From positions 62,001-126,000 of the IMG/VR virus record IMGVR_UViG_3300029922_000015: DNA of 64,000 bases. One strand, written 5' to 3'. The notes beneath the pieces are model-generated. The model was not told the origin of the DNA and searched no databases. It saw only the letters and a program-made list of their open reading frames with translations. This DNA is from a virus. Positions 30,048-63,730 of the stretch are shown here, piece after piece. How positions within the stretch are numbered: the stretch's first letter is position 1; each line of letters begins with the position of its first letter. The position numbers were made by a program, and so were the translations under genes.

Positions 30048-30076
30048 TGGACTTTTTACCCCTTTAAATGTATCAT
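30048..30076 (+). promoter_or_regulatory. Rightward promoter of the divergent region
   Basis: TGGACT, 17-bp spacer, TATCAT, then 5 bases to the ATG at 30082. Confidence 0.7.
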
Positions 30077-30081
30077 GTAAT

Positions 30082-30366
30082 ATGACACCAAGCTTACACG
30101 ACATAGTTCGAGATATTGTTCACTCTATCGCCATGATGGCCGTTCTGGCGCTCGTGTGCTCCCCTTTCTTGTGGACTCTTTGGAATAACATCCTTGTTTC
30201 CAAATTTCCGATTGGCTCAATTCAACCCATTTCTTTCCTCGACGGCTTCTCGATTAACTTTTTAGTTAATATACTTTGGTATCTAAAACTACAAAAACGG
30301 GATGTTATTATCGCGAATTCTGCGATACCAGAGGGAGAAGATGACAAAGAGCGAGAAAATTCATAA
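30082..30366 (+). CDS. Small membrane protein
   Basis: 94 aa. Two hydrophobic segments (about 15-35 and 55-73) and an acidic tail (EGEDDKERENS). First gene of the rightward arm, near-leaderless. Confidence 0.65.
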   Translation: MTPSLHDIVRDIVHSIAMMAVLALVCSPFLWTLWNNILVSKFPIGSIQPISFLDGFSINFLVNILWYLKLQKRDVIIANSAIPEGEDDKERENS

Positions 30367-30374
30367 AAATCTCC

Positions 30375-30403
30375 TTGACTTTCGCCTCATCTTCTGTTAA
30401 GCT
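30375..30403 (+). promoter_or_regulatory. Promoter
   Basis: TTGACT, 17-bp spacer, TAAGCT, 8 bases (GGGAGAAG) to the ATG at 30412. Confidence 0.65.
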
Positions 30404-30411
30404 GGGAGAAG

Positions 30412-30927
30412 ATGAACATTTTCGCCGTAGCCGATCAACCCGAAATTGCGGCTAACCAGCTATGTCTTAAGCATGTTTGCAAAATGGTTGTGGAAAGCAC
30501 CCAAATGCTTTGCTCGGCTTTTCCTGAAAATACGCCAAACCTTCCTTATGCAAGGACACATTATAATCATCCTTGCGCGGTTTGGACACGTCAAACCTTG
30601 GGTAATTTTAATTGGTTAATGATTCATGCCATGCATTTAGCTGATCGATTCGCTCGTGTTTATAATCACCAGCATAAATGTAAAGAAATGCTTTTTTCTT
30701 TGTCGAGCATCGCGAACAATCTAGATCGGAGTATTCTTGTTAATAGGGAGAAAACGCCCTTTCCATTAGTTATGCCAGATAGATATAAAATTCCCCTTAA
30801 TAGAATCGCTTCTTATAGGAATTATTATATTCACGAGAAAGCGTCTTTTGCGAAGTGGGAATCCCTAGAGAGAATTCCTCCGTGGTGGCCGTTCAGAACT
30901 AACGCTTTTGTAAGGATTTCCAGATAA
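30412..30927 (+). CDS. Conserved phage protein (KHVxKMxxE family)
   Basis: 171 aa. LCLKHVCKMVVESTQML, NHPCAVWTRQ, FNWLMIHAMHLADRF and FASFAKW-type ends match a widespread phage family with conserved His/Lys residues. Its function is not established to my knowledge. Conserved charged residues suggest an enzyme. Confidence 0.7.
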   Translation: MNIFAVADQPEIAANQLCLKHVCKMVVESTQMLCSAFPENTPNLPYARTHYNHPCAVWTRQTLGNFNWLMIHAMHLADRFARVYNHQHKCKEMLFSLSSIANNLDRSILVNREKTPFPLVMPDRYKIPLNRIASYRNYYIHEKASFAKWESLERIPPWWPFRTNAFVRISR

Positions 30928-31284
30928 AGTATTAACGAATAAATGAAGTCCGTAAAACTTCGGCTCTGCGGAGCTAGTTAGTTTATTATTTGGGAAATAA
31001 ATAGAGAGAAAATAAATGCACAAAAATGGAGTTCTTTAAAGGAAAAACCGTATTGCCTCTCTTCCTGAAAGGTAAGAAACCGCGCCATTAAAGCATTCAG
31101 TTAAGCTTGTGTGACCTTAACAGGAAACAAAAAAGATAATCTGTCGGATCGTTTCTCCGATATTTTGTTACAAGCGAAACTGTAAAAGTATTTCTACGCG
31201 CCCCATGCGTTAATTGAGGGATTTAGCTCGCGTAGCTATGGTCTGATAGTTGATTGAACCCTCCTATCAGACCAATCAATTTTC
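30928..31284 (+). other. Gene-free region with alternative hairpins
   Basis: About 350 bp without a credible gene. At 31240-31273 GGTCTGATAG pairs with CTATCAGACC. GAGGG (31216) can instead pair with CCCTC (31259), so the two structures exclude each other. Confidence 0.5.
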
Positions 31285-31313
31285 TTGACAGGAGATAAAT
31301 CAGATGGTAATAT
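31285..31313 (+). promoter_or_regulatory. Promoter fused to a start codon
   Basis: TTGACA, 17-bp spacer containing ATAAATC, TAATAT, 6 bases, ATG at 31320. Confidence 0.8.
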
Positions 31314-31319
31314 TAAAAT

Positions 31320-31820
31320 ATGAAGAATTTTGTCGATATACGTCGTAGCTTTGGAGAGGTGATAGTTACGGCTTGTCTTCCTAGCTTGGAAGATTTTGTC
31401 AAACAAGTAAGCAAAGATGATGTTGAGAATGTATTAGATCATTGCGATACGGCGGCTCGCGCTAAGTTTTATTCGCCCGCTTTGAATTATAGTTATCGTT
31501 TTGATTATAATCGAATTTTTGGAGATTTAGGTCAACGTATAGAAAGAGAGGGATGGTTGCGCCCTCGCTATCAATGGGGCGATGTGACTCTGTGTAACGA
31601 AGAGACGTTTAATGTTGTGCCTTTTGTTAGTCGCGGCATTGGAAAGGAACAAAAACTTAAGTTTCTAGGAGTATATTCCGAAGAGGATTTAACTCGACTG
31701 TCGAAATCTTTAAAAGCTGTTATTGAATTTGCTCGCGACTATCGCCGGGAAATAACAATTCGTTGCGAAGTTGGAGATGAAAAAGAAGAAGACAGCAAGG
31801 CGATAGAAATTCAGATTTAG
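31320..31820 (+). CDS. Cassette protein A (unknown), first copy
   Basis: 166 aa. First gene of the three-gene cassette A-amidoligase-GATase. FVSRGIGKEQKLKFLGVYS followed by a helical K-A-rich part resembles LMSRGISEKKQFLIPGMFS in the gene at 36892, so they are probably paralogues. Function unknown. Confidence 0.7.
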   Translation: MKNFVDIRRSFGEVIVTACLPSLEDFVKQVSKDDVENVLDHCDTAARAKFYSPALNYSYRFDYNRIFGDLGQRIEREGWLRPRYQWGDVTLCNEETFNVVPFVSRGIGKEQKLKFLGVYSEEDLTRLSKSLKAVIEFARDYRREITIRCEVGDEKEEDSKAIEIQI

Positions 31821-31821
31821 C

Positions 31822-32493
31822 ATGAAATATATTTCTAAAATTGGCCTTGAAATCGAGGGAGGATGGTTTTCGACTGAAGACAAGCCGGAAAGTCTTACAA
31901 GCTGGCATCACGACGATAGCGTTCGTAACATCCGCAAAACCCAAAACGGAGTTCCTATTCGTTTTATTGGCGAGGCGGTTTCTATACCCCTCGCGAATTT
32001 GAGCGCAGTCCACGAATGGATTAACATTTATTGGCCCGACCGTAAAAATAAGAGTTGTGGTTTTCACATTCATACTTCGTTCGTTGATCCTAAATTTTAT
32101 TGGTATCTTGTTAATGAGGATTTTTATATTCAATTTTATAAGAAAATGAAAGCGGTAGGCAATAAGCTTCACCTGTCCGCTCATTTCTTTGATAGATTAA
32201 TGGGCAAGAATGTTCACTGTCAGAAATTATTCAAGGGCCGCGAACAACTTTACGCTCTAACCAAAACAAATAATCGGTATTCTCAGCTTAATTATTGCTA
32301 CTCCTTGCACGGCACACTCGAAAATCGTTTGCCTTGCGCCATTCTTCCCATAAGGAAGGCTCAGCAATACGTTGATGAGTATATTCAATTTATCGAAAAT
32401 TATTTAGAGGCTCATCCTAAACCCGAGATTACCGAGTTTAATTGGGAAACAAAAGTTGAAGTCGAAGATGAAAATGAGAAAATTTTGTCTTGA
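31822..32493 (+). CDS. Amidoligase_2-type COOH-NH2 ligase (paralogue 1)
   Basis: 223 aa. Hallmarks: IGLEIEGGW at 7-15, CGFHIHTSF at 79-87, and YSQLNYC...TLENRLP around 153-171. These are the metal/ATP-binding and catalytic strands of the glutamine-synthetase-like Amidoligase_2 family (PF12224), predicted to join carboxyl and amine groups using ATP. Two bases separate it from gene A and a class II amidotransferase follows at 32531; the latter could supply ammonia. Substrate unknown. Confidence 0.85.
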   Translation: MKYISKIGLEIEGGWFSTEDKPESLTSWHHDDSVRNIRKTQNGVPIRFIGEAVSIPLANLSAVHEWINIYWPDRKNKSCGFHIHTSFVDPKFYWYLVNEDFYIQFYKKMKAVGNKLHLSAHFFDRLMGKNVHCQKLFKGREQLYALTKTNNRYSQLNYCYSLHGTLENRLPCAILPIRKAQQYVDEYIQFIENYLEAHPKPEITEFNWETKVEVEDENEKILS

Positions 32494-32518
32494 CAATTAA
32501 CGAAACAAGTGATATAAT
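32490..32518 (+). promoter_or_regulatory. Promoter of the first GATase gene
   Basis: TTGACA, 17-bp spacer, TATAAT, 12 bases to ATG. The -35 box begins in the end of the amidoligase gene. Confidence 0.8.
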
Positions 32519-32530
32519 CTTAAAAAATCT

Positions 32531-33235: not shown

Positions 33236-33252
33236 AAAAGATCAAAAAGTTC

Positions 33253-33281: not shown

Positions 33282-33324
33282 TGTTCAAGTCAGAAAACCA
33301 AACAAACAAAAAAGAAAGGCCAAA

Positions 33325-36077: not shown

Positions 36078-36361
36078 CTTTAACAAAGCTATTTATTAAA
36101 CCCCGGCGGATACCTTTACAAATGCATATCCATAATTTCTATGGAGATTTGGATAAGGGTTATTTTAAGCTTTATGAACGATATTTTTGCAAATCGTTTG
36201 CTTTAGAAAGAGAAGCGGAAGGATTTCGTTCGATTGTTTGGAAAATAGTTCCAATGGAGTTTAGAAATAATCCTAATTTAATTTTAGCGTGGCCTTATCA
36301 CAGAGATAAGCGAGGTAATTTTATTCCTTTACAATATTGCGAAACGATAATTAGTGCTTGA
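36074..36361 (+). CDS. Tandem family B, copy 2
   Basis: 95 aa. HNFYGDLDKGYFKLYERYF and LAWPYHRDKRGNFIPLQYCE parallel copy 1. Starts in an ATGA overlap. Confidence 0.65.
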   Translation: MTLTKLFIKPRRIPLQMHIHNFYGDLDKGYFKLYERYFCKSFALEREAEGFRSIVWKIVPMEFRNNPNLILAWPYHRDKRGNFIPLQYCETIISA

Positions 36362-36386
36362 CACGCGACGAATCCTTTGATAACAT
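36358..36386 (+). promoter_or_regulatory. Promoter fused to a start codon
   Basis: TTGACA, 17-bp spacer, TAACAT, 6 bases, ATG at 36393. Confidence 0.8.
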
Positions 36387-36392
36387 ATTTTT

Positions 36393-36869
36393 ATGCGATA
36401 TATTGCCGACGTTCAGTATAAGTATGATCCGATTACTAATAAGGCGTCACTTTATCTTTATTCTCCGACAATAGCGGCGATGTATGAAGAAATCGGTTTC
36501 GACACTCGCAACTACGAGTCGGAAAGATATGAGCTTTTAGAATCTCTTTCTGCTTATTTAGTTAGAGGAATTTCAATTGAAAATGAACATCGATTCGAGC
36601 GGCGCGGCACGAAATACACAGTTTTTACGCAAAAATGCGCTAATTGTAATCTTTTGATTGAGTGTGATGGGGGATGGGGAGTAAATATTTCCCATATTCG
36701 AGGAGTTCTTATTGGTAAGGGTTTCAGTTATAAAATAAAGCCATTGCCCGTTGCGAAAACGGAAGCGGTTTTGATAGCTTATAGCGAAGGGGTTCGCGAG
36801 TATTATCGCGCTCTTAAAAGCCATTTAGATTTAAAAAGAAAATACGATAAAGTTCTTGACAAAGAATAA
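36393..36869 (+). CDS. Hypothetical protein
   Basis: 158 aa. A YLVRGISIENEHRF stretch recalls the SRGI segment of cassette protein A. CANCNLLIECDGGW could be a metal site. Function unknown. Confidence 0.65.
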   Translation: MRYIADVQYKYDPITNKASLYLYSPTIAAMYEEIGFDTRNYESERYELLESLSAYLVRGISIENEHRFERRGTKYTVFTQKCANCNLLIECDGGWGVNISHIRGVLIGKGFSYKIKPLPVAKTEAVLIAYSEGVREYYRALKSHLDLKRKYDKVLDKE

Positions 36870-41972: not shown

Positions 41973-42001
41973 TTGACGGGCCGCGAATCTAATGTTATCT
42001 T
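41973..42001 (+). promoter_or_regulatory. Promoter fused to a start codon
   Basis: TTGACG, 17-bp spacer, TATCTT, 6 bases, ATG at 42008. Confidence 0.75.
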
Positions 42002-42007
42002 TGTTGT

Positions 42008-42244
42008 ATGAAGAATACATCACAGTCAGTTCAATCGGGTAAGGGTCAGTCGTCTAAGCCGGGTCGGGGTCGTCCTTTGAAGTACAAGGTGTTCGCGACT
42101 CTCGGCATCGGCCAATTTCGTCTCTTCCCTATGAAGGTGCGAAATAACGTTGTCACGAGCGCTTACCTTTTTGCCAAGCGCCACGGTCTGACGTTCAAGG
42201 CTAATAACCTCGAAAAGACGGTTAAGATCACCCGCATGGCTTAA
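42008..42244 (+). CDS. AT-hook-like small basic protein
   Basis: 78 aa. Ser/Gly/Gln-rich start, then PGRGRPLKYK, an AT-hook core, and a basic C-terminus. Codon choice is biased as in 33325. Private promoter and downstream hairpin suggest high expression. Confidence 0.68.
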   Translation: MKNTSQSVQSGKGQSSKPGRGRPLKYKVFATLGIGQFRLFPMKVRNNVVTSAYLFAKRHGLTFKANNLEKTVKITRMA

Positions 42245-43915: not shown

Positions 43916-43944
43916 TTGACACGATAAGGATTGTTTATTACAAT
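43916..43944 (+). promoter_or_regulatory. Promoter fused to a GTG start
   Basis: TTGACA, 17-bp spacer, TACAAT, 6 bases, GTG at 43951. Confidence 0.8.
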
Positions 43945-43950
43945 TCTTTA

Positions 43951-44466
43951 GTGAACATTGTAGCTCGTCTATCCAGAATTAAGAAATGCCGTCTTGTTTC
44001 TTTAGTCTATCGTACTAAGAAAAGCGATGAACTGTCAGTTTACCTGATAGCGTTAGGCGTTGACCTTCGCAGAGCTTACGCTCGCGATGAAAAAGTAATC
44101 CGCCTAATAAAAACGCGCGGGCGCGTTCAAACCCAAGCCAAACAGGAAATCCTCGATTCCTTGCGCGAAAGTCTTCGATACGGCTTGGGCAATAACTCTC
44201 GTTATACTTGCCGGGGCGTCTATAAAACGCTTTTCAATGGCTGCAAAATTCATAGGCGCGACAAGACCATTCATTTTTATGGTTTTATAATTCGTAAAAA
44301 GATTCTTGAAGAGGGAAGCTATCCCCTTGTTCGCCATAGTGCTTTGACTCTCGCCAAAATGAAAATTCGTAAGCACATGAAAATTAATCGTTTTCGTCAA
44401 TTTGAATTGAGTCATGTAAAAAAGATAGCTTTCGAAGGAAAAGTCTTGACTTTCTCTCAATTTTAG
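43951..44466 (+). CDS. Conserved basic phage protein
   Basis: 171 aa, GTG start. RLVSLVYRTKKSDELSVYLIALG, a helical centre and LTLAKMKIRKHMKINRFRQF are a pattern seen in other phage proteins of unknown role. Confidence 0.65.
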   Translation: MNIVARLSRIKKCRLVSLVYRTKKSDELSVYLIALGVDLRRAYARDEKVIRLIKTRGRVQTQAKQEILDSLRESLRYGLGNNSRYTCRGVYKTLFNGCKIHRRDKTIHFYGFIIRKKILEEGSYPLVRHSALTLAKMKIRKHMKINRFRQFELSHVKKIAFEGKVLTFSQF

Positions 44467-44474
44467 GGTATTAT
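44446..44474 (+). promoter_or_regulatory. Promoter fused to a start codon
   Basis: TTGACT, 17-bp spacer, TATTAT, 6 bases, ATG at 44481. Confidence 0.82.
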
Positions 44475-44480
44475 CGCTTT

Positions 44481-45131
44481 ATGCTTAGCAATTTTAAATA
44501 CATTGATAAGGTCGGGTGCGAGCTTGAAGGGGCTTTTTTAAATATTCCCGATCCCGATAACAAATTCCTCGACCACGTAAAAGGAGAAGGAATGTCAATT
44601 TCTCCCGAGGAAAGGGCTATTATCAACGAAAAGAAACTTGTTGTTGGTGAGCGAAATAGCGAACCCTATAAAGCCCTTCTTCCCTTGCGCAAATGGGTGC
44701 GAAAGTTCTGGCCGGAAGTTGTAAATAATTCCAACGGCTTTCACGTTCACGTTTCGTTTAAAGACCCTTCCGTTCGCTCAACAATCGTTGCGTCCGCCGA
44801 CTTCCATCGAACCTTTATCGAAGAATGCAAGAAATTTGTTCTTTCGCCAAAGTATCGTTTTAGTAAGAGCGTAATTGATAGGGCGGCTCATAATATTTAT
44901 GGTCATCATTATCATTCCACCGGAGACAGGCGTTCGGGCGTGACTCCTTTTGCGGATTATGATACCAGTGAATTTCGTATTTTCTCCGGCGATATGACAG
45001 CGAAGCAAGCAAACCTTTGTTTGACTTGGCTTGTATCGTTTATTGAGAATTACTTTGAGGAACATGAACAAGCAACTGTTTGTGATAAGGCGCGGGTTGT
45101 TTATCACTCCTTCTCGGGACAACAAATCTAA
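44481..45131 (+). CDS. Amidoligase_2-type ligase (paralogue 4, variant)
   Basis: 216 aa. VGCELEGAF at 11-19, SNGFHVHVSF near 92-101 (the usual Cys is Asn), TSEFRIFSG near 175. Leaderless promoter. A divergent but complete family member. Confidence 0.8.
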   Translation: MLSNFKYIDKVGCELEGAFLNIPDPDNKFLDHVKGEGMSISPEERAIINEKKLVVGERNSEPYKALLPLRKWVRKFWPEVVNNSNGFHVHVSFKDPSVRSTIVASADFHRTFIEECKKFVLSPKYRFSKSVIDRAAHNIYGHHYHSTGDRRSGVTPFADYDTSEFRIFSGDMTAKQANLCLTWLVSFIENYFEEHEQATVCDKARVVYHSFSGQQI

Positions 45132-46873: not shown

Positions 46874-47113
46874 ATGGCAAATAAAAAGAAAATAACTAAT
46901 TCGGATTTGGCTGAGCGCGTGTCCGAATTGCAAAAGGAAGAAAGTTATACGGTCAAAATTCCTGCTTATGTTATGGCTTACATTCAAAGAGGATGGAGCG
47001 CGGAACTAAAGAAATATAAAGCCGCCTTTTCTCCCGAAGTAGCAATTCAGGCAATCGTGCGCGTGGAAGCTAATCGAATTTTGCAAGAAGAATTAAAATT
47101 GGAAAATGTTTAA
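46874..47113 (+). CDS. Hypothetical protein
   Basis: 79 aa (MANKKKITNSDLAERVSEL). Its stop overlaps that of the opposing GIY-YIG gene by 4 bp. Confidence 0.6.
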   Translation: MANKKKITNSDLAERVSELQKEESYTVKIPAYVMAYIQRGWSAELKKYKAAFSPEVAIQAIVRVEANRILQEELKLENV

Positions 47114-47847
47114 TTATATTGCCATTTAAATCCCATCGCGCTTCTAAGAATATAAGCACCTTGAGCGTTTTTACATATATAGCCTTTGCAGACTTTAGTA
47201 ATCGCGCTACATTGATTGAACTTTCCAAACGAATAAGCTGCTTCTTTAGCAGAGGGCCAGATTTTAATTATTTTCCCTGTTTTTTTATCAATTTGTTGGA
47301 CAGCCTTAGCCCCAATACCTTTATGAAGTTCGGATAATTTTTTCCTTGTTGCTTTAGTATGATGTCTACCGAACATTGGATTATTTTTTCCTGAAAATCT
47401 TTGTCGATTTAAATTTCCTATTAATATTTTTGTCTCCTCGGTGTGTGCTTTACCATAAAAGGGATTTTTTATTCCTTTCATACTTTCGGACATTCTTTGG
47501 CGTTCTTTTTTAGAGGCTTTTCTTCCGGTCGTATCGTTTGAGAAAGTACATATATTATATCCTATTTTTTGATTAGTAGAATTTAATTTCTTGATCCATT
47601 CGGTTTCTATTTTCAATAATTTTTCATTCTCAATTTGATCAAAGCTTTCCAAAATGGAAACCTCAAAATTTTCCCAACCATATTTATAAATAGCATAAGA
47701 TACTGGATGATTTTTTGTAGGAGTTTTTTCATAATGTCGATAGCAACGCATTCTTTCACGAATGCGAACCGACTTTCCAACATAAACTTTCCCATTAATT
47801 TTGTTAGTTAAAAGGTAGATTCCCGGTTTTGAAGTTATTTCGCTCAT
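47110..47847 (-). CDS. GIY-YIG homing endonuclease
   Basis: 245 aa. GIYLLTNKINGKVYVGKS at 8-25 is the GIY-YIG motif, with catalytic Arg in RIRERM and Glu near 80. NUMOD3-like repeats (MKGIKNPFYGKAHTEET, NNPMFGRHHTKATR) and a NUMOD1-like end (WPSAKEAAYSFGKFNQCS ... GFKW) bind DNA. It faces against its neighbours, so it is a recent insertion. TGTAAT-N7-ATG is present. Confidence 0.92.
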   Translation of the reverse strand: MSEITSKPGIYLLTNKINGKVYVGKSVRIRERMRCYRHYEKTPTKNHPVSYAIYKYGWENFEVSILESFDQIENEKLLKIETEWIKKLNSTNQKIGYNICTFSNDTTGRKASKKERQRMSESMKGIKNPFYGKAHTEETKILIGNLNRQRFSGKNNPMFGRHHTKATRKKLSELHKGIGAKAVQQIDKKTGKIIKIWPSAKEAAYSFGKFNQCSAITKVCKGYICKNAQGAYILRSAMGFKWQYN

Positions 47848-49292: not shown

Positions 49293-49321
49293 TTGACACG
49301 CCATAAATTCAATCATATCAT
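49293..49321 (+). promoter_or_regulatory. Promoter fused to a start codon
   Basis: TTGACA, 17-bp spacer with CATAAATT, TATCAT, 6 bases, ATG at 49328. Confidence 0.82.
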
Positions 49322-49327
49322 TAATTT

Positions 49328-49591
49328 ATGAAGACGGTTTCTTTTCAAGTTACAATGGACGAAGATACAGATCGCCCATATATTCTTGATGTCATTGCCG
49401 AATATCAAAAAGGGAGAGATGGATTCTATTTTGATCCGGCTTATGGAAATTATGTGGGCGGCGCGGATTCCGAATTTAATATCCTGTCTACCAAACGGCA
49501 TGGCAAGGAAATTGAATCAGAGGGGCGAGTAGACGCCGAAATCGAAGATCAATTTTGGAAGATGCTTGAGGAAGGATTGATTTACGCATGA
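49328..49591 (+). CDS. Hypothetical acidic protein
   Basis: 87 aa (SFQVTMDEDTDRPYILDVIA). Leaderless. ATGA overlap with next gene. Confidence 0.65.
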   Translation: MKTVSFQVTMDEDTDRPYILDVIAEYQKGRDGFYFDPAYGNYVGGADSEFNILSTKRHGKEIESEGRVDAEIEDQFWKMLEEGLIYA

Positions 49592-50494: not shown

Positions 50495-50674
50495 ATGTTT
50501 TATATTCAACGACTCGATAGAGTTTTTATTGGAATGCAGCGTATCCAAGACAAAATCGTTTATACCTCTTGCGATTACATTTGTAATGCCCATAAGTTTG
50601 ATATAGGTGAAGCGTTTGCTTTTCTAACCAGAAAAGGCGTAAATGTTGATGATTTTGAGCTAATAGAAACTTGA
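50495..50674 (+). CDS. Hypothetical protein
   Basis: 59 aa (MFYIQRLDRVFIGMQRIQDK). Short spacing to the preceding gene. Confidence 0.58.
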   Translation: MFYIQRLDRVFIGMQRIQDKIVYTSCDYICNAHKFDIGEAFAFLTRKGVNVDDFELIET

Positions 50675-50699
50675 CAAAAGTTGAATCTTCAAATATAAT
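50671..50699 (+). promoter_or_regulatory. Promoter fused to a start codon
   Basis: TTGACA, 17-bp spacer, TATAAT, 6 bases, ATG at 50706. Overlaps the previous stop. Confidence 0.87.
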
Positions 50700-50705
50700 A
50701 CTTGC

Positions 50706-50939
50706 ATGATTATTCTTAATACTCTTATTGTAATTCTTTGGTGGGCTTGCGGTGTGGCTTTTGTCCTCGCCGACCTACGGAACGATGGAATTTTAGAAGT
50801 TCGTGGCAATCATATATTTTTCGCTATGTTTTATGGTGCTGTGTATGGGGCTCTTTATCTATTCTGTCACGTTTTTTTGCGAAAGCCTATCATGGCTTTC
50901 ATGGATAGGGTTTTTATCAAATATGAACAAGGAGTATAA
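50706..50939 (+). CDS. Small membrane protein
   Basis: 77 aa, two spans (IILNTLIVILWWACGVAFVL and FAMFYGAVYGALYLF). Leaderless. Confidence 0.65.
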   Translation: MIILNTLIVILWWACGVAFVLADLRNDGILEVRGNHIFFAMFYGAVYGALYLFCHVFLRKPIMAFMDRVFIKYEQGV

Positions 50940-52095: not shown

Positions 52096-52284
52096 ATGAA
52101 TCTAAAAACTAAATTGAAATTAGGAATATTAGCACAAACCCTGTTAGACGCTCAGTATAATATTACTGACGCCGTACAAGAAGATATACCACAAGAATTA
52201 TTTAAGCCTCTATGCCAGATAGATGAGCATATACATAAATTTCGATCTTTAATCAAAGATTATACAGAAAAAGTCTTGACTTAA
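52096..52284 (+). CDS. Small helical protein
   Basis: 62 aa. Its last codons contain the -35 box of the next gene. Function unknown. Confidence 0.6.
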   Translation: MNLKTKLKLGILAQTLLDAQYNITDAVQEDIPQELFKPLCQIDEHIHKFRSLIKDYTEKVLT

Positions 52285-52304
52285 GACGAATATTAAGTTA
52301 CAAT
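52276..52304 (+). promoter_or_regulatory. Promoter fused to a start codon
   Basis: TTGACT, 17-bp spacer, TACAAT, 6 bases, ATG at 52311. Confidence 0.85.
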
Positions 52305-52310
52305 AAGCTC

Positions 52311-52799
52311 ATGAAGCTCACCCATCTTAGCTCTACTCAGCCGAGAGAGAAGATAGTTCGAATTGCTGAAAGTATCATTCAGGATTTGGAAATTAAGATT
52401 CCGGTTCACTTGATTTACCAAGATTGCTGGAGCGAGTTTGACAGTGATACGGGCGAGATTATTCCCAATACTGAGCGACATGATATCTCGCACGACGGTA
52501 TTGCGCAAGACGATGGAATAGTTAGGGTTTGTATTAATCCGTCTTTGATGGTTTTCCCGGCGTGGTGGGATATTAATTCGGAACTTAAGAATTTCTATTT
52601 GCGTCGTATTGGTACTTTTTACGATATTGACGAAATGATCCTTTATTATATTTCGCACGAGTTTCATCATCTCTTTGGGTATGAGCATCCGCGCGAAATT
52701 AAAACCATGTCCCGAATTGCTAAATGCGACGAGGAAACGTTGGCCGATTTTTATGCGCTTCGAAATCTGAGCAAGAAAAGGACAAATGACTCAAATTAA
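52311..52799 (+). CDS. Zinc metalloprotease-like protein
   Basis: 162 aa. H116-E117-x-x-H120-x-x-G123-x-x-H126 gives the HExxHxxGxxH motif, followed by DEETLADFYALR with acidic residues as in secondary ligands. Small soluble domain without signal peptide, so a cytoplasmic protease acting on host or phage protein is likely. Substrate unknown. Confidence 0.8.
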   Translation: MKLTHLSSTQPREKIVRIAESIIQDLEIKIPVHLIYQDCWSEFDSDTGEIIPNTERHDISHDGIAQDDGIVRVCINPSLMVFPAWWDINSELKNFYLRRIGTFYDIDEMILYYISHEFHHLFGYEHPREIKTMSRIAKCDEETLADFYALRNLSKKRTNDSN

Positions 52800-54245: not shown

Positions 54246-54274
54246 TTGACAAAAGATAAATCGCCGTATAAGCT
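54246..54274 (+). promoter_or_regulatory. Promoter fused to a start codon
   Basis: TTGACA, 17-bp spacer with ATAAATCG, TAAGCT, 6 bases, ATG at 54281. Confidence 0.82.
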
Positions 54275-54280
54275 TCGATT

Positions 54281-54631
54281 ATGAACTTCTCGAAGGCAAT
54301 CCATATCAGCGAAATTCCGCGCGAATGCGTCATCGCTTGTAGCAACGGCGGAGGCGACTTTACCATGCTGCAATTCTGGCGCGATAAGATCGATTTTCGT
54401 GTTGATCGTGAATCGGCGGTTGAATACCTCAAAAGCGAGCTTTGTTGGTACGATGAGGTAATGAAGGACGAAACCGACGAAACGCTTTCCTGCCGAATTC
54501 TTTGTGCAGCCGTGGGCGAGTTTCGTGAGTATATCAATGCTTGCGAGACAAAGGGCTTGAATCCCTATGATCCGCAAATTCATTATGAGCCCGCAACAGG
54601 TTCGAATATGTTTGTTTTTGCCAAGGGGTAA
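54281..54631 (+). CDS. Hypothetical protein
   Basis: 116 aa, mixed alpha/beta, Cys-containing helices (LSCRILCAAVGEFREYINAC). Leaderless. Confidence 0.65.
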   Translation: MNFSKAIHISEIPRECVIACSNGGGDFTMLQFWRDKIDFRVDRESAVEYLKSELCWYDEVMKDETDETLSCRILCAAVGEFREYINACETKGLNPYDPQIHYEPATGSNMFVFAKG

Positions 54632-55747: not shown

Positions 55748-55776
55748 TTGACAATATGTAAACTTTCCTTAATAAT
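55748..55776 (+). promoter_or_regulatory. Promoter fused to a start codon
   Basis: TTGACA, 17-bp spacer, AATAAT, 6 bases, ATG at 55783. Confidence 0.78.
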
Positions 55777-55782
55777 TACACT

Positions 55783-56034
55783 ATGCGTCCAGAATTAGTT
55801 TATCCTTCCGAAGAAAATCCGGTTTATTGTCATGATTGCAAGGAACATATCAGGGAAAATGATTTGTTTGGACGTTTTCGCGGCCAATGGACTATTTTGT
55901 ATTGCGCTAAGTGTTTCGGTACTTATTGCGACAAAGAAATGGATTATAATCATCCAGAGATTGTTAAATTGATGGAAATGAAACTAAACTCTAATCGGCG
56001 TTACACAGAGGAAGATTTAATAAAGAAATATTAA
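55783..56034 (+). CDS. Zinc-finger-like protein
   Basis: 83 aa with CHDCKEHI and CAKCFGTYC, a likely zinc ribbon, and a charged tail. Leaderless. Confidence 0.68.
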   Translation: MRPELVYPSEENPVYCHDCKEHIRENDLFGRFRGQWTILYCAKCFGTYCDKEMDYNHPEIVKLMEMKLNSNRRYTEEDLIKKY

Positions 56035-56042: not shown

Positions 56043-56071
56043 TTGACAAGGCGCGTATCCTGTGAGATCAT
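56043..56071 (+). promoter_or_regulatory. Promoter fused to a start codon
   Basis: TTGACA, 17-bp spacer, GATCAT, 6 bases, ATG at 56078. Confidence 0.72.
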
Positions 56072-56077
56072 TAACTC

Positions 56078-56830
56078 ATGAACTCGAAAATCCGCTTTGG
56101 AGTTGAAATTGAAGGGGGATGGAAAAACGCCTCTAAAATTACTTCTCTCATCAAAGATGACGGATCGGTTATTATACCGGAATACTCTTCCCTCTATTCC
56201 ATTTTCACGGGGCGCGGACATCTTACTCCAAGAGAAAAAGCCCAAATTATTAAAGCAAAACCTAGCAATCTTTGTGGTGAGGTAGCGAGTCCGGTTTTCA
56301 ATACGTTGCCTCAATTCAAACGGTGGACTCGGCGCGTTTATCCCGACGCCACAAACGCTACTTGTGGTTTGCATATCCATGTTTCTTTCCCCCGTCTTAT
56401 AGATTATGCGACATTAATGACACGCAGTTTTAATAGTCGCTTTTTGTCAGAAATAAATCGGTTTGGAGAGAATTTTGTTGATAAAGACGAAGCGATGGCC
56501 AAAATTTATTGGGATCGTTTCTTTAACAAAAATAGTTATTCTTTAAAAAAGTTCTGCCCTCTTGGAACTTTGCAAAACGATGCGGGACATAAATATCGTT
56601 TCATTAATTACGGAGCTTTTACTTATACTGATAGAAAGCGAACGTTCGAATGTCGGTCTTTTCCGGCTTTTAATCAGCGAGGATTGGCGGAAAAGGCCGT
56701 TGAATTGTTTTTGAAATTGTGTGAGGATTATATCGCGGAATTTGCTAATCCCGAAGACCCGGAAATCGTGTTGAATATGCAAGTCCTCAAAAGGTATCTT
56801 TCACCCGATGAGTCTTTAAATAAGGAATAA
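56078..56830 (+). CDS. Amidoligase_2-type ligase (paralogue 7)
   Basis: 250 aa, the longest. FGVEIEGGW at 7-15, ATCGLHIHVSF near 103-113, YRFINYGAF and TFECRSFPAF near 178-200. An extra loop follows the first motif. Closest in wording to paralogue 2 (CGLHIH, ECR-FPAF). Confidence 0.85.
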   Translation: MNSKIRFGVEIEGGWKNASKITSLIKDDGSVIIPEYSSLYSIFTGRGHLTPREKAQIIKAKPSNLCGEVASPVFNTLPQFKRWTRRVYPDATNATCGLHIHVSFPRLIDYATLMTRSFNSRFLSEINRFGENFVDKDEAMAKIYWDRFFNKNSYSLKKFCPLGTLQNDAGHKYRFINYGAFTYTDRKRTFECRSFPAFNQRGLAEKAVELFLKLCEDYIAEFANPEDPEIVLNMQVLKRYLSPDESLNKE

Positions 56831-57509: not shown

Positions 57510-57538
57510 TTGACATCGCGTAAATAGCGCGATATAAT
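57510..57538 (+). promoter_or_regulatory. Promoter fused to a GTG leader ORF
   Basis: TTGACA, 17-bp spacer, TATAAT, 6 bases, GTG at 57545. Confidence 0.85.
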
Positions 57539-57544
57539 TATCTT

Positions 57545-57580
57545 GTGAGCCTTATCTGCAATCCCCTTCTCGCGAACTAA
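57545..57580 (+). CDS. Possible 11-residue leader peptide
   Basis: GTG start placed exactly where other leaderless starts lie, 11 codons (VSLICNPLLAN), stop 2 bases before the ATG of the next gene. Confidence 0.4.
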   Translation: MSLICNPLLAN

Positions 57581-57582
57581 AC

Positions 57583-57996
57583 ATGAAAATCGAATCTAAT
57601 GTCTCGGATGAGATTATAAACAATGCGCTTATCGGCGCGCGGGAAGGGGCGACGTGCTATTGGGCTCAAAGTCGATTATTCGATCCGAATAAACGAAAGG
57701 ATATTAAACTCCATCTCAATCCCTTGGAAGGAAGATATTTTGTTGGCGAAGGTAAATATGATGGCGAGGAACTTTGGCTAAACTCCGAGTGCGGAAATAA
57801 AGCACTATCATTTTTTGAAGAGGAAAATCCTGAAATTGAACTTTTTGTGACTCATTGTAGGATTAGTCGCGGATTGCTTTTAATGTCCGAAAAGTATCCC
57901 AAGCATTTTGCGGATTTGATTGGCGAGAACGACGATGCAACGACCCACGATGTTTTCCTCCAATGCTGTCTTCTTAATAATGTAATTTATGGTTAA
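57583..57996 (+). CDS. Hypothetical protein
   Basis: 137 aa, acidic alpha/beta with several Cys. Follows the possible leader peptide. Confidence 0.65.
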   Translation: MKIESNVSDEIINNALIGAREGATCYWAQSRLFDPNKRKDIKLHLNPLEGRYFVGEGKYDGEELWLNSECGNKALSFFEEENPEIELFVTHCRISRGLLLMSEKYPKHFADLIGENDDATTHDVFLQCCLLNNVIYG

Positions 57997-58714: not shown

Positions 58715-59011
58715 ATGATCATATTTTTATCCAAGGAACAAAAGGCTAAGTATAAAACTTGGCGGAAAACCATTCAAATCGATACGGAAGAAACCTGTGA
58801 TATTGGTTATGATGTTATAACGGTTACTCGCGGAAGTATCGGAGATTCGATTGTCGCTTCTTACGGAGACGATCAATGCAATCTTACAATTGACGACGAC
58901 GGTTTTCTAATTAATTATGGCGATACTTTTGTTTATCCAGAAATCGAGGTAGACATTCAAGAATATCATAAAAAACTAAAAGAATTCGAGAATTTGCTTG
59001 ACAGCCAATAA
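58715..59011 (+). CDS. Hypothetical acidic protein
   Basis: 98 aa, beta-rich (TVTRGSIGDSIVASYGDDQ). Its end contains the next promoter. Function unknown. Confidence 0.65.
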   Translation: MIIFLSKEQKAKYKTWRKTIQIDTEETCDIGYDVITVTRGSIGDSIVASYGDDQCNLTIDDDGFLINYGDTFVYPEIEVDIQEYHKKLKEFENLLDSQ

Positions 59012-59026
59012 ATCGCCGTTTATAAT
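58998..59026 (+). promoter_or_regulatory. Promoter fused to a start codon
   Basis: TTGACA, 17-bp spacer with ATAAATCG, TATAAT, 6 bases, ATG at 59033. Confidence 0.88.
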
Positions 59027-59032
59027 ATTAGT

Positions 59033-59371
59033 ATGAACACTACTACCTTCACCGCCTCCTCAATGCGCAGTCCTCTCGCTTCCCTCGGCATGTTTAAGCG
59101 CACTAAGCGCAAGTCATGGGAGTTCGACGGACGCGCCGCTCGCCGGAAGCAGACTGGCGAGATTTACAACGGGCCTGAAATTGATATCTCTGAGTATCTT
59201 GTGCAGCAAAACGCAAAAACCGTTAAGATTAAGTTTATCGCTAAGAGCGGAGTTTACCTTTTCCCCGATCGTCGCGAATTCCCGAATAAGGATATCTCGG
59301 GCGCGAAGGAATATGCTCGACTTAAGGGCTTCTCGATTCTCAAGCTCGGAGGAATCAAGATTCGACTTTAA
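59033..59371 (+). CDS. Basic, probably abundant protein
   Basis: 112 aa, basic N-terminal half (FKRTKRKSWEFDGRAARRKQ). Codon use is C/G-ending as in 33325 and 42008. Consensus promoter. Likely early and highly expressed; function unknown. Confidence 0.68.
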   Translation: MNTTTFTASSMRSPLASLGMFKRTKRKSWEFDGRAARRKQTGEIYNGPEIDISEYLVQQNAKTVKIKFIAKSGVYLFPDRREFPNKDISGAKEYARLKGFSILKLGGIKIRL

Positions 59372-59722: not shown

Positions 59723-59751
59723 TTGATTTTTCGCTCAAGTAGTGCTATAAT
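59723..59751 (+). promoter_or_regulatory. Promoter fused to a start codon
   Basis: TTGATT, 17-bp spacer, TATAAT, 6 bases, ATG at 59758. Confidence 0.82.
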
Positions 59752-59757
59752 CTCTTC

Positions 59758-59928
59758 ATGCGTAAAACTAAAAGTTTAGGCCGAATTACCGATTTGGGTT
59801 ATTCGGTTTACCAGAGCGATGATAGATGGTCGCTCGAAAAGAATGGTAAAGCCTGTGATGTCGCGCCTTGTGGCGCTACGCAATCCCAAGCCGTCAAACA
59901 GTTTATGGATTACCTTAGAATAAAATAA
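59758..59928 (+). CDS. Small hypothetical protein
   Basis: 56 aa (MRKTKSLGRITDLGYSVYQ). Leaderless. Function unknown. Confidence 0.62.
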   Translation: MRKTKSLGRITDLGYSVYQSDDRWSLEKNGKACDVAPCGATQSQAVKQFMDYLRIK

Positions 59929-60254: not shown

Positions 60255-60257
60255 CCT

Positions 60258-60590
60258 ATGGAGATTACAGGACGATATGCTCCCAATGAAAATAGTTTGC
60301 GCAATCAATCTATTTTCTATCTAAACAATGGGGTTAAAGCTACTGTCGAAGAAACGGCGGTGTTAGGTCGCATAATCGTTCAACTTGAAGACGGTTTGGG
60401 GTATTGGACTAATCTGAATGGGTTGAAAAATCTGCCCTTACGCTTTCAATTCGCTAGGGCTTGGGAAGATAAAGATAAGAATGTTTTGCGTCCATTGTTT
60501 TCAAGAATCTATCCTAATCCCGGTTGCGAAGGACTTATGCTCGCGGGCGAAGTGCGCGATTTGTATCGGGGTCGAGAATGGATTGAATAA
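60258..60590 (+). CDS. Hypothetical protein
   Basis: 110 aa, mixed. TAATG overlap with the next gene. Confidence 0.63.
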   Translation: MEITGRYAPNENSLRNQSIFYLNNGVKATVEETAVLGRIIVQLEDGLGYWTNLNGLKNLPLRFQFARAWEDKDKNVLRPLFSRIYPNPGCEGLMLAGEVRDLYRGREWIE

Positions 60591-60823
60591 TGAATGTCGA
60601 ACCTCCTATAACAAAATCTATTTCCAAAAAACAGTTACTTAAGGAATCAATCGATAAAAGAGATTCCATTGCGCGTTTTAAGATCGGGCTGACTGTTATG
60701 TCTTTTCAAGAATTAGATGAATCGGAGATGAGTTTTCTGAAAATTCCTTTAATAATGAAAAGCTTGGACGATTGGCTGGATTTTTTGAACGAACAAGTCG
60801 AAAAAGGTATTGACAAGTCATAA
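60590..60823 (+). CDS. Hypothetical protein
   Basis: 77 aa, charged helical. Its last codons hold the next -35 box. Confidence 0.63.
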   Translation: MNVEPPITKSISKKQLLKESIDKRDSIARFKIGLTVMSFQELDESEMSFLKIPLIMKSLDDWLDFLNEQVEKGIDKS

Positions 60824-60838
60824 ACCGTATAATACAAT
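60810..60838 (+). promoter_or_regulatory. Promoter fused to a start codon
   Basis: TTGACA, 17-bp spacer with CATAAACC, TACAAT, 6 bases, ATG at 60845. Confidence 0.85.
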
Positions 60839-60844
60839 TATCGC

Positions 60845-60973
60845 ATGGCTAGAATTATAGTTTATATTATGATGACCGCCTCTTGGATTATGATCGTCGG
60901 CGGCGCGATTATAATGCTTGTCAGTTGTGGTTTTTGTATCAAAGATATTCTATATGTGCTCACCAGACTCTAA
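60845..60973 (+). CDS. Very small membrane protein
   Basis: 42 aa, one long hydrophobic span (SWIMIVGGAIIMLVS). Leaderless. Confidence 0.6.
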   Translation: MARIIVYIMMTASWIMIVGGAIIMLVSCGFCIKDILYVLTRL

Positions 60974-61193
60974 ACAATTCTATCTGAATTATTGCGCGGG
61001 ATTGGTTGTTTTAGACCCGATTGGCGAAGATATTTACTTTTTTGAGCCTTGCATTAAGCATAAGAACGCAACAATCTTTAGTATCAATATGATTTTGGGA
61101 TTTTATGAGCGATGGAAAGGCGTGCCCGAGATAATCAATTCTCTTCGCGTTTTTAATATGCCAATTGAATTGTTTATTCAGCAATTAAAATAA
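60954..61193 (+). CDS. Hypothetical protein
   Basis: 79 aa from the ATG at 60954 (MCSPDSKQFYLNYCAG). Overlaps the membrane gene by 20 bp. Confidence 0.6.
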   Translation: MCSPDSKQFYLNYCAGLVVLDPIGEDIYFFEPCIKHKNATIFSINMILGFYERWKGVPEIINSLRVFNMPIELFIQQLK

Positions 61194-61410
61194 ATTTGAC
61201 AAACAAGAGTTGGTTTCCGATTAACGCTCGCAAAATCGTCTGTGATCAAGGAACATAGAGCAATCTATTAATCATTAAAAAGTGGCGTGGGAGAAAATTC
61301 GTAGCATTTTCGTTTGTACCACTAAACTCTGTAGATAAAGAATTCCTTTCATCCAAGAAAATAACAGGAATCGATATCAAAATGTCCAAAGTTGAGATGG
61401 AGATTCAATA
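61194..61410 (+). other. Gene-free stretch with promoter-like start
   Basis: 217 bp with no credible gene. TTGACA at 61198 with a weak -10 (GATTAA) after 17 bp could start a small RNA. Confidence 0.4.
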
Positions 61411-61569
61411 ATGACCGCGAGCCTTGTTTGTTCAGATTGCCAAGAAAAGGTTATTGAAACGATGGTCGGCAAGCCCGCATCTAAAGCTTTCTATTGTCCG
61501 TTTTGTGATGATTTTGTCAGACCTAAAAAGAGCTTGACATCGAACGAAACCGAACCTATAAAGGAATAA
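61411..61569 (+). CDS. Zinc-ribbon protein
   Basis: 52 aa with CSDCQEK and CPFCDDF. Its 3' part contains the complete promoter of the next gene. Confidence 0.65.
   Translation: MTASLVCSDCQEKVIETMVGKPASKAFYCPFCDDFVRPKKSLTSNETEPIKE
61534..61562 (+). promoter_or_regulatory. Promoter inside the previous gene, fused to a start codon
   Basis: TTGACA, 17-bp spacer, TATAAA, 6 bases, ATG at 61569. Confidence 0.75.
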
Positions 61570-61895
61570 TGGCTGATAATTATTTTATGGTTTACCGAGC
61601 GAAACCTCCCTTTGAGGTATTTAAAGGGGTGCGGTTTGGGCGCGTTGATTACGCTGGTGCTTCGCACAATCAACAAGATTGCGAGCGATTAGTTACGGCT
61701 TTGAACGGCGGCAAACCTAGGGGTTTTAAAGCCAACGTCACTAGCGCGGCGCTCAAGATTCTCCAAAAGAACTTGGAGAACGTTTTGTTTGAGCCCGCGA
61801 AGGTATTTCCGCCCGATGGCATCGCAAAGATTCCCGATGTTTTTACCGTGACTTACGATTCGCTTATTGATGAATTGCAGGAGGTTTACACATGA
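61569..61895 (+). CDS. Hypothetical protein
   Basis: 108 aa (MADNYFMVYRAKPPFEVFKG). TAATG overlap with the zinc-ribbon gene. Function unknown. Confidence 0.65.
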   Translation: MADNYFMVYRAKPPFEVFKGVRFGRVDYAGASHNQQDCERLVTALNGGKPRGFKANVTSAALKILQKNLENVLFEPAKVFPPDGIAKIPDVFTVTYDSLIDELQEVYT

Positions 61896-62125
61896 TTATT
61901 GTTATAGTAATGTTGGTTATTATTAACATCGCATTCGTTTTGTTGGTAAGTGAAAGCCAGAGCGAGGTAAAGCATTTGAAGGCATTGAACGAATCTTATA
62001 AAGATTATAATCAAATTTGGCGCGATTTAGCTGAGCAACGATTAGATACCATCGCGAAAAGAAACTTTGAAATTGTTAAATTAATTAGAAAGTTGCAAAA
62101 ATATGGATTGGATAAAGAAAAGTGA
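61892..62125 (+). CDS. Membrane-anchored coiled-coil protein
   Basis: 77 aa: one N-terminal span (IIVIVMLVIINIAFVLLV), then a charged helix. Same plan as the gene at 21037. Confidence 0.65.
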   Translation: MIIVIVMLVIINIAFVLLVSESQSEVKHLKALNESYKDYNQIWRDLAEQRLDTIAKRNFEIVKLIRKLQKYGLDKEK

Positions 62126-62134
62126 AAATTTCTC

Positions 62135-62163
62135 TTGACACGACATAAATCGTATGCGATGAT
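62135..62163 (+). promoter_or_regulatory. Promoter
   Basis: TTGACA, 17-bp spacer with CATAAATCG, GATGAT; reads into a two-codon minigene and a gene-free stretch (62170-62410). Confidence 0.65.
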
Positions 62164-62197
62164 GTTATCCACACGCTAGACAAAAGGAGAATCCATC

Positions 62198-62206
62198 ATG
62201 AAGTAA
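62198..62206 (+). other. Two-codon minigene ATG AAG TAA
   Basis: An AAGGAG site stands 8 bases before the ATG, and the frame closes after one more codon. About 240 bp around it hold no longer gene. Confidence 0.4.
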
Positions 62207-62361
62207 ACTAACATCATTATAAGCAACGGTTAAGAGATTATGAGATTGTAGGCAGTAACTTAAAGAACTAGATAAGGATACAATGAAGCCTCCGTAGCTA
62301 TAAAACAAATTTAAGATTAAAGATAGAGTATAATGAAAAGTTAGTTGGTTAGTTGTTGAGA

Positions 62362-62405
62362 CGCGCTGTTGGAATTCCGAGCCAATGGCGCGTCTCTTGT
62401 TAAAG
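62362..62405 (+). terminator. Perfect hairpin, probable terminator
   Basis: GAGACGCGC pairs with GCGCGTCTC with an inner TTGG/CCAA pair; T-rich bases follow. Confidence 0.6.
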
Positions 62406-62411
62406 AAATTT

Positions 62412-62603
62412 ATGGATAGTGTTTATCAAATTTTAGACGTGGAATTTAATCGCAAGAATGGATTTCGCAAGGGGATAGGCCAATATTTTCGAGTCGCGCC
62501 TCAATATGCTCACGTTCTAGTGGTTCAAGCGCAATCGGCGCACGGTCGCATCTATAATGATTGGGCCGAATTTAAGGCGGATAACGAAAGTAGTTTTAAT
62601 TAA
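62412..62603 (+). CDS. Hypothetical protein
   Basis: 63 aa from ATG 62412 (MDSVYQILDVEFNRKNG). Upstream start lies in the hairpin and is rejected. Confidence 0.6.
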   Translation: MDSVYQILDVEFNRKNGFRKGIGQYFRVAPQYAHVLVVQAQSAHGRIYNDWAEFKADNESSFN

Positions 62604-62609
62604 AATTTT

Positions 62610-62678
62610 ATGCCCAAAACTTCGCTGTCCCTAATTAAAAGGATTGGCGAGTTTCGGGCTCTCTTTAGAAAACAATAA
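62610..62678 (+). CDS. Very small basic peptide
   Basis: 22 aa (MPKTSLSLIKRIGEFRALFR). Supported by TAATG overlap with the next gene. Confidence 0.42.
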   Translation: MPKTSLSLIKRIGEFRALFRKQ

Positions 62679-62860
62679 TGAATAATCCAAACCCTCAATA
62701 TTATGTGGCTGTTGCTCAAGCGGATATCGGATTTACGTTGAAGATCATTGTAAATCTAACAACGAGAACTGCGAGGATTTTTTCTTTAGAACAAGCTGTC
62801 AAAGAATGTCGGGCGCAACAACGGTCGGGCGTTGTCGCAACTTATCTTCCGGTTGTATAA
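62678..62860 (+). CDS. Hypothetical protein
   Basis: 60 aa (YYVAVAQADIGFTLKIIVNL). Function unknown. Confidence 0.6.
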   Translation: MNNPNPQYYVAVAQADIGFTLKIIVNLTTRTARIFSLEQAVKECRAQQRSGVVATYLPVV

Positions 62861-62861
62861 T

Positions 62862-63041
62862 ATGAATGATCTTGCTAAATCATTAGAGAAGCTAATCAAG
62901 ATGATAGGCGAAAAGACTTGGGTTGATGGATATGAACTTAGATCGGGAATTCACGGAGATGAAGTTTGGGCTAATAAACAAGAAGCCAGCGATTTCTTTG
63001 AAGCCGAAAAGAATTTAAAAGATTATCTTGACAATCAATAG
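62862..63041 (+). CDS. Hypothetical protein
   Basis: 59 aa from ATG 62862, charged. Its end contains the next -35 box. Confidence 0.6.
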   Translation: MNDLAKSLEKLIKMIGEKTWVDGYELRSGIHGDEVWANKQEASDFFEAEKNLKDYLDNQ

Positions 63042-63056
63042 ATCGTATATTATTAT
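63028..63056 (+). promoter_or_regulatory. Promoter fused to a start codon
   Basis: TTGACA, 17-bp spacer with AATAGATCG, TATTAT, 6 bases, ATG at 63063. Confidence 0.85.
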
Positions 63057-63062
63057 AACGAT

Positions 63063-63386
63063 ATGGAAAATGCTTCCCTTCTTAATGCCAGCGATAAGAG
63101 ATGGCTTCCGTCTTTTCAAGAAACGGCTGAGCGTTTGGGCGTCGAATATCAAATCTCAATCGAGCCTTACGAGGATAATTATAATCTAACTATTCGTTTT
63201 GAGTTGAATGGTATGAAGCACACAGAAGTTAATTTCAAGCAGGCTACCGAAGAACTGGAAGATTGGGCCGATGGATATCATTCGCGTAAGATTGAAGCAG
63301 AAGCCTATCGGCGAGATGAGCTAGAAGCGTTTGGCGATATGGCAAGCGAATTCGCTGAGCCCGAACCAGAACATCCCGAATTTTAA
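63063..63386 (+). CDS. Hypothetical acidic protein
   Basis: 107 aa, alpha/beta, very acidic end (EFAEPEPEHPEF). Leaderless. Confidence 0.65.
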   Translation: MENASLLNASDKRWLPSFQETAERLGVEYQISIEPYEDNYNLTIRFELNGMKHTEVNFKQATEELEDWADGYHSRKIEAEAYRRDELEAFGDMASEFAEPEPEHPEF

Positions 63387-63389
63387 TTT

Positions 63390-63521
63390 ATGAGCTTAAA
63401 AAGAGACATAAAAAAAGTTTATCGCAAGGTAAAACGCGCAATAAAAAAGGTAGATAATCAAAACTCTTTGGAGTTTGCTTTGCTGAAACTTCAATTGCGT
63501 AATTTGGAAAGGATGATGTAA
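63390..63521 (+). CDS. Small basic helical protein
   Basis: 43 aa (MSLKRDIKKVYRKVKRAIKK). TAATG overlap with next gene. Confidence 0.52.
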   Translation: MSLKRDIKKVYRKVKRAIKKVDNQNSLEFALLKLQLRNLERMM

Positions 63522-63691
63522 TGCGAAACATTCCCCGATTTGTTTGTAGTTTGCTTAATCACGATTATATACGGATAGACTACAATTCTAAACATCATCG
63601 TCATATCGAGCTTTGTAAATGTTGCGGCGATAGGCGCATCTCCATGAATTTCAGCGAGTTAATTAAAATGGATTTGACGCCAAAGAATTAG
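63521..63691 (+). CDS. Small zinc-binding-like protein
   Basis: 56 aa with HHRHIELCKCCGDRR, possible metal site. Function unknown. Confidence 0.58.
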   Translation: MRNIPRFVCSLLNHDYIRIDYNSKHHRHIELCKCCGDRRISMNFSELIKMDLTPKN

Positions 63692-63692
63692 C

Positions 63693-63721
63693 TTGACATC
63701 TTCTTAATTTAAGGTTATTCT
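63693..63721 (+). promoter_or_regulatory. Promoter
   Basis: TTGACA, 17-bp spacer, TATTCT, 9 bases, ATG at 63731. Confidence 0.78.
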
Positions 63722-63730
63722 AATTTTAAC

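Follow-up and report, generated by a model that had tools for sequence, protein, structure and literature searches.

Promoters six bases ahead of start codons and a probable set of leaderless genes in a large phage genome

The window considered here comprises 64,000 nucleotides (bases 62001–126000) of an IMG/VR virus record of 149,934 bp (IMGVR_UViG_3300029922_000015); the remainder of the record was fetched as well, and all counts refer to the whole of it. The record has a G+C content of 38.6% and carries genes for a DNA polymerase, a DnaB-like helicase, a UvsX-like recombinase, ribonucleotide reductase, and sugar-nucleotide enzymes. From 30 kb of the window to about 142 kb of the record the genes run rightward, are mostly small, and only a few of them have a Pfam match. 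In this region, and at some leftward genes, promoters of the sigma70 type are placed so that exactly six bases separate the −10 box from the start codon (a distance hereafter called the gap), and about 30 genes of this phage would on this basis be expressed from leaderless mRNAs. Positions are those of the window unless given as record positions.

Promoters and their distance to start codons

The first-pass annotation of the window had listed 17 rightward genes and one leftward gene at which a −35-like box, a 17-bp spacer, a −10-like box, six bases, and ATG or GTG follow one another, and the excess of this spacing over a control, which it had left to a full-genome count, has been borne out. 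Over the whole record, the pattern TTGAC-17-TANNNT-gap-ATG is found 24 times at gap 6 but 0–4 times at each of the remaining gaps up to 30; the gap-6 pattern is absent (0 matches) from the reversed sequence. When the −10 box is disregarded, TTGAC-N30-ATG occurs 32 times versus about five at other distances. The same result is obtained when promoters are counted first: among 54 strict promoters, picked blind to start codons before the first ATG was located, this ATG lies at gap 6 in 23, versus a mean of 0.63 per other gap (Poisson P ~6e-28). At least 40 codons are opened by 22 of these 23 ATGs (96%), compared with 58% at other gaps and 25% of random ATGs. Finally, a position weight matrix (PWM), derived from the sites and refined by iteration, returned about 50 promoters above 20 bits, whereas the maximum in the reversed genome was 11.8; 29 of its matches fall at gap 6, and gaps 5, 7, 8, and 9 receive 2, 2, 3, and 3, respectively. 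A −10 box six (±1) bases ahead of the start codon, one mark by which leaderless genes are recognised, is commoner in this record than expected by chance, and the arrangement is repeated at about 30 genes of one and the same phage.

All 18 listed sites were found again at their positions (Table 1), although several details had to be amended. The −35 box is of the form TTGACN at 17 of the 18 and TTGATT at the remaining one (59758), and a −10 box is present at every site but is weak at three of them. The GTG at 57545 has been dropped as a gene start, its open reading frame (ORF) ending after 11 codons with a stop two bases short of the ATG of the following gene; judging from the sequence, this ORF may stand for a coupling peptide made from a leaderless mRNA, or else the promoter may simply provide that gene with a plain 38-nt leader. 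The single leftward start was confirmed, but a second one (27181) had been overlooked, and the genes with 5, 7, or 8 bases in place of six, of which five had been mentioned, do exist and number seven in the window. We accept as leaderless about 30 genes genome-wide, 18 of them in the window (16 of the 17 rightward starts, 18277, and 27181). Beyond the window, the same arrangement is found rightward at record 127822–138322 and leftward at record 53191, 146971, and 147590.

Table 1. Promoter and start-codon sites in the window; the gap is the number of bases between the −10 box and the start codon
Coordinates	Strand	Promoter (−35, spacer length, −10)	Gap	Start codon	Gene or ORF
31285..31820	+	TTGACA-17-TAATAT	6	ATG 31320	166-aa gene
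36358..36869	+	TTGACA-17-TAACAT	6	ATG 36393	158-aa gene
41973..42244	+	TTGACG-17-TATCTT	6	ATG 42008	78-aa gene
43916..44466	+	TTGACA-17-TACAAT	6	GTG 43951	171-aa gene
44446..45131	+	TTGACT-17-TATTAT	6	ATG 44481	216-aa gene
49293..49591	+	TTGACA-17-TATCAT	6	ATG 49328	87-aa gene
50671..50939	+	TTGACA-17-TATAAT	6	ATG 50706	77-aa gene
52276..52799	+	TTGACT-17-TACAAT	6	ATG 52311	162-aa gene
54246..54631	+	TTGACA-17-TAAGCT (weak −10)	6	ATG 54281	116-aa gene
55748..56034	+	TTGACA-17-AATAAT (weak −10)	6	ATG 55783	83-aa gene
56043..56830	+	TTGACA-17-GATCAT (weak −10)	6	ATG 56078	250-aa gene
57510..57996	+	TTGACA-17-TATAAT	6	GTG 57545 (11 codons; rejected as gene start)	137-aa gene, starts 57583
58998..59371	+	TTGACA-17-TATAAT	6	ATG 59033	112-aa gene
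59723..59928	+	TTGATT-17-TATAAT	6	ATG 59758	56-aa ORF
60810..60973	+	TTGACA-17-TACAAT	6	ATG 60845	42-aa ORF
61534..61895	+	TTGACA-17-TATAAA	6	ATG 61569	108-aa gene
63028..63386	+	TTGACA-17-TATTAT	6	ATG 63063	107-aa gene
18152..18312	−	TTGACT-17-TATAAT	6	ATG 18277	41-aa ORF
26453..27216	−	TTGACT-17-TATGAT	6	ATG 27181 (absent from the earlier list)	242-aa gene
			5, 7, or 8	6088(−), 8317(−), 28546(−), 30412, 36892, 42730, 45169	

The promoters share more than their two boxes. A/T-rich sequence lies upstream, 72% of the promoters have C at −36 (giving CTTGAC), and position −21 is A in 49 of 51 (30 of 31 at gap 6 and 19 of 20 others), a conservation close to that of the strongest −10 bases; this A played no part in the strict promoter search, although it was included in the PWM behind the wider promoter list. 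It often stands within AATC at −22 to −19, as at 36358–36386, 49293–49321, and 63028–63056. This spacer element, which had been overlooked in the first-pass annotation, apparently belongs to transcription and not to translation, since it is present at promoters both with and without leaders, and it is possible that it represents either a preference of the host polymerase or an operator, between which we make no choice. Some leftward promoters have TTGACTTTGCGATCAAAAA-like spacers instead, and at those of window 15740, 20241, and 29137 and record 53191 (−) a TTGACTTT(G)CGATCAAAAA-like core replaces AATC, defining a second promoter subfamily. A scan of the sequence collection for the spacer motif showed, among the matches listed, no second virus that demonstrably has the same promoter family; in the 117 stretches listed, gap 6 is not enriched, being the spacing of 3 of the about 58 sites that have an ORF start. 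Another IMG/VR contig (L039) is identical to this record across the 7.6 kb compared and shares four of its promoters. Matches to the PHROGs named 'Srd anti-sigma' and 'sigma70 decoy' were considered as a sign of sigma appropriation and rejected, because they are found together with HNH-endonuclease families.

Leaderless expression and its alternatives

Transcription of the sigma70 type usually begins about seven bases past the −10 box. Since the start codon lies six bases past it in the gap-6 genes, the RNA is predicted to begin precisely with that codon. The bases around these starts were evaluated in 31 gap-6 sites, hand-picked from the PWM list and including 57545. The base at −1 is a pyrimidine in 26 of the 31, compared with 136 of 233 other starts (P 0.006), and, as a pyrimidine is expected at this position of a transcription start, this agrees with leaderless mRNAs. 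The mean energy of pairing with the anti-Shine-Dalgarno sequence is −0.5 kcal/mol at gap-6 starts, compared with −2.3 for operon-internal genes and −1.8 for ATGs taken at random, and no Shine-Dalgarno (SD) site with a start codon is present in the 60 nt downstream of any of the 31 starts. Promoters with a leader are also found in the same region, at record 100117 (AGGAG, gap 20) and 112130 (AAGGAGG, gap 17), and as these carry clear SD sites the host ribosome apparently uses such sites too. The set of leaderless genes proposed in the first-pass annotation is thereby favoured by the spacing, the lack of SD sites, the reading frames that begin where the RNA is predicted to start, and the pyrimidine just before them, and we assign a probability of about 0.85 to the reading of the gap-6 genes as leaderless mRNAs transcribed from a genome-wide family of sigma70-type promoters.

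According to this model, a host RNA polymerase with a sigma70/sigmaA-type factor would read a dispersed, genome-wide family of strong promoters, composed of an A/T-rich stretch upstream, CTTGACA, a 17-bp spacer whose conserved A at −21 usually falls within AATC, and TATAAT. At about thirty of them transcription would start on the first base of ATG or GTG, so that the first gene of each unit would be issued as a leaderless mRNA, and host ribosomes carrying initiator tRNA would bind the 5′-terminal AUG directly, without SD pairing. The downstream genes of a unit would probably depend on re-initiation or coupling, 51 of 243 same-strand neighbours overlapping by 1 or 4 bases. A smaller number of promoters would retain a short leader, in some cases with an SD site. 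The position of the leaderless class among small orphan genes suggests that it may be expressed early.

Several points weigh against this reading. The sequence shows the promoter family, the spacing, the ORFs, and the lack of SD sites, whereas the transcription starts are inferred from the spacing, and both the mode of ribosome binding and the ability of the host to translate leaderless mRNAs are presumed. The starts could not be confirmed with homologues, as IMG/VR contains no relative of two of the leaderless genes tested, and a third matches only the other contig of the same virus. Moreover, SD sites are weak throughout the phage (pairing of −5 kcal/mol or stronger in 24% of operon-internal genes versus 12% of random ATGs), and their absence at gap-6 starts is for this reason less telling. 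The gap-6 observation itself is genuine and very strong, and the sequence gives good support to the leaderless mRNAs predicted from it.

A different explanation accepts that RNA starts at the gap-6 base, but takes the ATG as a sequence that favours transcription initiation, translation beginning downstream at an SD-led codon. The site at 57545, where 11 codons precede the real gene, is in keeping with this explanation, and in the uncultured virus G017 some gap-6 ATGs are followed a few codons on, as judged by eye, by an apparent SD site and a second ATG. These ATGs may thus precede an SD-led start, and not every gap-6 site need be leaderless. In the phage described here, however, both the long reading frames behind 22 of the 23 gap-6 ATGs (25% being the value for random ATGs) and the count of 0 of 31 for a downstream SD site with its start codon make this explanation very improbable. 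It could also be argued that the spacing simply follows from the compactness of an AT-rich genome, in which selection against long intergenic stretches presses promoters against ORFs. Genes are indeed closely packed, with 125 of 243 same-strand neighbours spaced by −20 to +10 nt. Nevertheless, compaction predicts a broad distribution of gaps, and what is seen is a single-base peak at 6 with nearly nothing at 0–5, a peak that is absent from a relative of similar size and GC (G001); compaction is scarcely credible as the cause.

The remaining alternatives concern translation, and the first of them is compatible with leaderless mRNAs: the phage might alter host initiation, through factors, initiator tRNA, or ribosomes, so that its own leaderless mRNAs are preferred. 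The genome does encode a translation-related set. A leftward array at 3440–19542 (−) contains 33 transfer RNAs (tRNAs; ARAGORN) and a one-piece transfer-messenger RNA (tmRNA) with the tag DNKTRSSYGRNGNVADIALAS, with small genes interspersed. Its tRNA-Met (12400–12476, −), whose closest phage matches are Caulobacter phage tRNA-Met genes (~90%), is initiator-like by our own reading of the sequence, with a mismatched first pair, a GAGC/GCTC D-stem, and an anticodon stem weakened next to its loop, where it has two G-C pairs instead of three. A protein of 104 amino acids with an RF-1 domain and a GGQ motif (524–838, −) is built like small peptidyl-tRNA hydrolases such as ArfB, and because it is present together with the tmRNA, the phage may have two ribosome-rescue functions. 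Both tRNA-Met and RF-1-domain protein could aid translation, without proof of a preference for leaderless mRNA. Many large phages have tRNAs and a tmRNA, which by themselves give no advantage to leaderless mRNA. Pfam scans of 168 phage proteins, along with single scans, detected no ribosomal protein, initiation factor, or rRNA modifier, proteins below about 70 amino acids and unrecognised families lying outside their coverage, and no phage RNA polymerase was found among the proteins scanned. The altered ribosomes suggested in the first-pass annotation are left unsupported, as neither a ribosomal protein nor an initiation factor was found, and we regard a takeover of initiation as unlikely, even if the Thermus thermophilus phage phiYS40 has been reported to raise the initiation factor IF2 and to lower IF3 (PMC3594737). 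Somewhat more elaborate, and quite unlikely, is a proposal that links the class of transcription to the mode of translation; the leaderless units would then form one regulon, marked by A-21/AATC and read by a phage-controlled polymerase or under a phage-controlled regulator, with initiation shifted toward 5′-terminal AUGs by the phage's own initiator-like tRNA, tmRNA, and RF-1-domain protein.

Neighbouring genes and relationships

Among the 63 proteins of the rightward region (30–64 kb, +), four match Amidoligase_2, a repeated family in the midst of otherwise orphan genes. A homing endonuclease gene, of the GIY-YIG type according to PHROGs, lies antisense within the same region (47110–47847, −). 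Identification of the host was unsuccessful: a 24-kb stretch had no match to named phages by megablast, relatives of the ribonucleotide reductase are scattered over genomes of Opitutales, Paenibacillus, Lysinibacillus, Rhodobacteraceae, and Flavobacteriales, and tRNA and protein matches are dispersed among phages of Caulobacter, Komagataeibacter, Stenotrophomonas, and Tunturiibacter.

The sole demonstrated relative that shows the arrangement is G002, with a DNA polymerase 46% identical, in which 12 genes stand at TTGAC-N30 and 5 at N31; the other large relative, G001, has no gap-6 counts above background. The arrangement has also been found in five uncultured large viruses of IMG/VR (G011, G015, G016, G017, and G020), which have 16, 11, 10, 12, and 8 cases, respectively, of TTGAC-17-TANNNT-6-ATG and 0, 2, 2, 1, and 0 at gap 11. 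These viruses were chosen via one matching locus, so that each gap-6 count is inflated by one, and their spacer sequences are their own. The much larger G011 (IMGVR_UViG_3300046092_000062, 320,767 bp; L357) has its own family of gap-6 promoters, often with TATAATACACACATG and a AATGGTTTT-like spacer. In the IMG/VR stretches listed for TTGAC-17-TATAAT-6-ATG, an ORF of at least 40 codons begins at 72% of the ATGs, the value for random ATGs of those stretches being 25%. Four bacterial genomes (1.3–4.9 Mb) gave 1–7 matches versus 0–5 in controls.

Leaderless expression in known systems

The phage described here provides a clear and statistically strong case of a large phage with leaderless expression as a main mode, the RNA start being predicted. 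The same single-base signature recurs in several more uncultured viruses of large size, and leaderless transcription may thus be a design shared by many large phages. This is of practical significance, as gene callers that rely on SD sites could misplace the starts of leaderless genes, and a histogram of −10-to-ATG gaps is a simple test that requires only the genome and can be applied to any phage collection.

Leaderless genes have been described in several bacteria and phages. In bacteria of the Deinococcus-Thermus group, TANNNT is found at a fixed short distance ahead of ORFs, and leaderless mRNA has been shown experimentally (PMC12340547); these genes are bacterial and usually have no −35 box, whereas the phage promoters have a near-consensus one. 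In cluster O mycobacteriophages such as Corndog, the predicted SigA promoters PL1, PR2, and PL2 have the first start-codon base as their +1 (PMC4351075), although these are GC-rich actinobacterial phages with two or three such promoters, compared with about thirty here. The paper on phage AR9 notes more generally that leaderless transcripts are frequent in phages (PMC5312081). The closest parallel is phiYS40, in which most middle and late mRNAs are reportedly leaderless, and infection is accompanied by an increase of IF2 and a decrease of IF3, as reviewed in PMC3594737. Compared by promoter-to-start spacing, phiYS40 resembles the present phage in being large (152 kb) and AT-rich and in having a gap-6 peak: in its first 150 kb, TTGAC-17-TANNNT-gap-ATG occurs 8 times at gap 6, 0–2 times at each remaining gap up to 18, and 5 times at gap 19, and TANNNT alone is found 32 times at gap 6 versus about 15. 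The two differ in that experimental 5′ ends and the IF2/IF3 shift stand on the side of phiYS40, and the sequence alone on the side of the phage described here. A whole regulon of leaderless genes, presented as new in the first-pass annotation, therefore has prior art on the same scale in phiYS40. The leaderless design is of an already known kind, and the remaining interest lies in a genome-only signature that apparently recurs among large phages and in an unexplained, almost invariant base of the promoter spacer.

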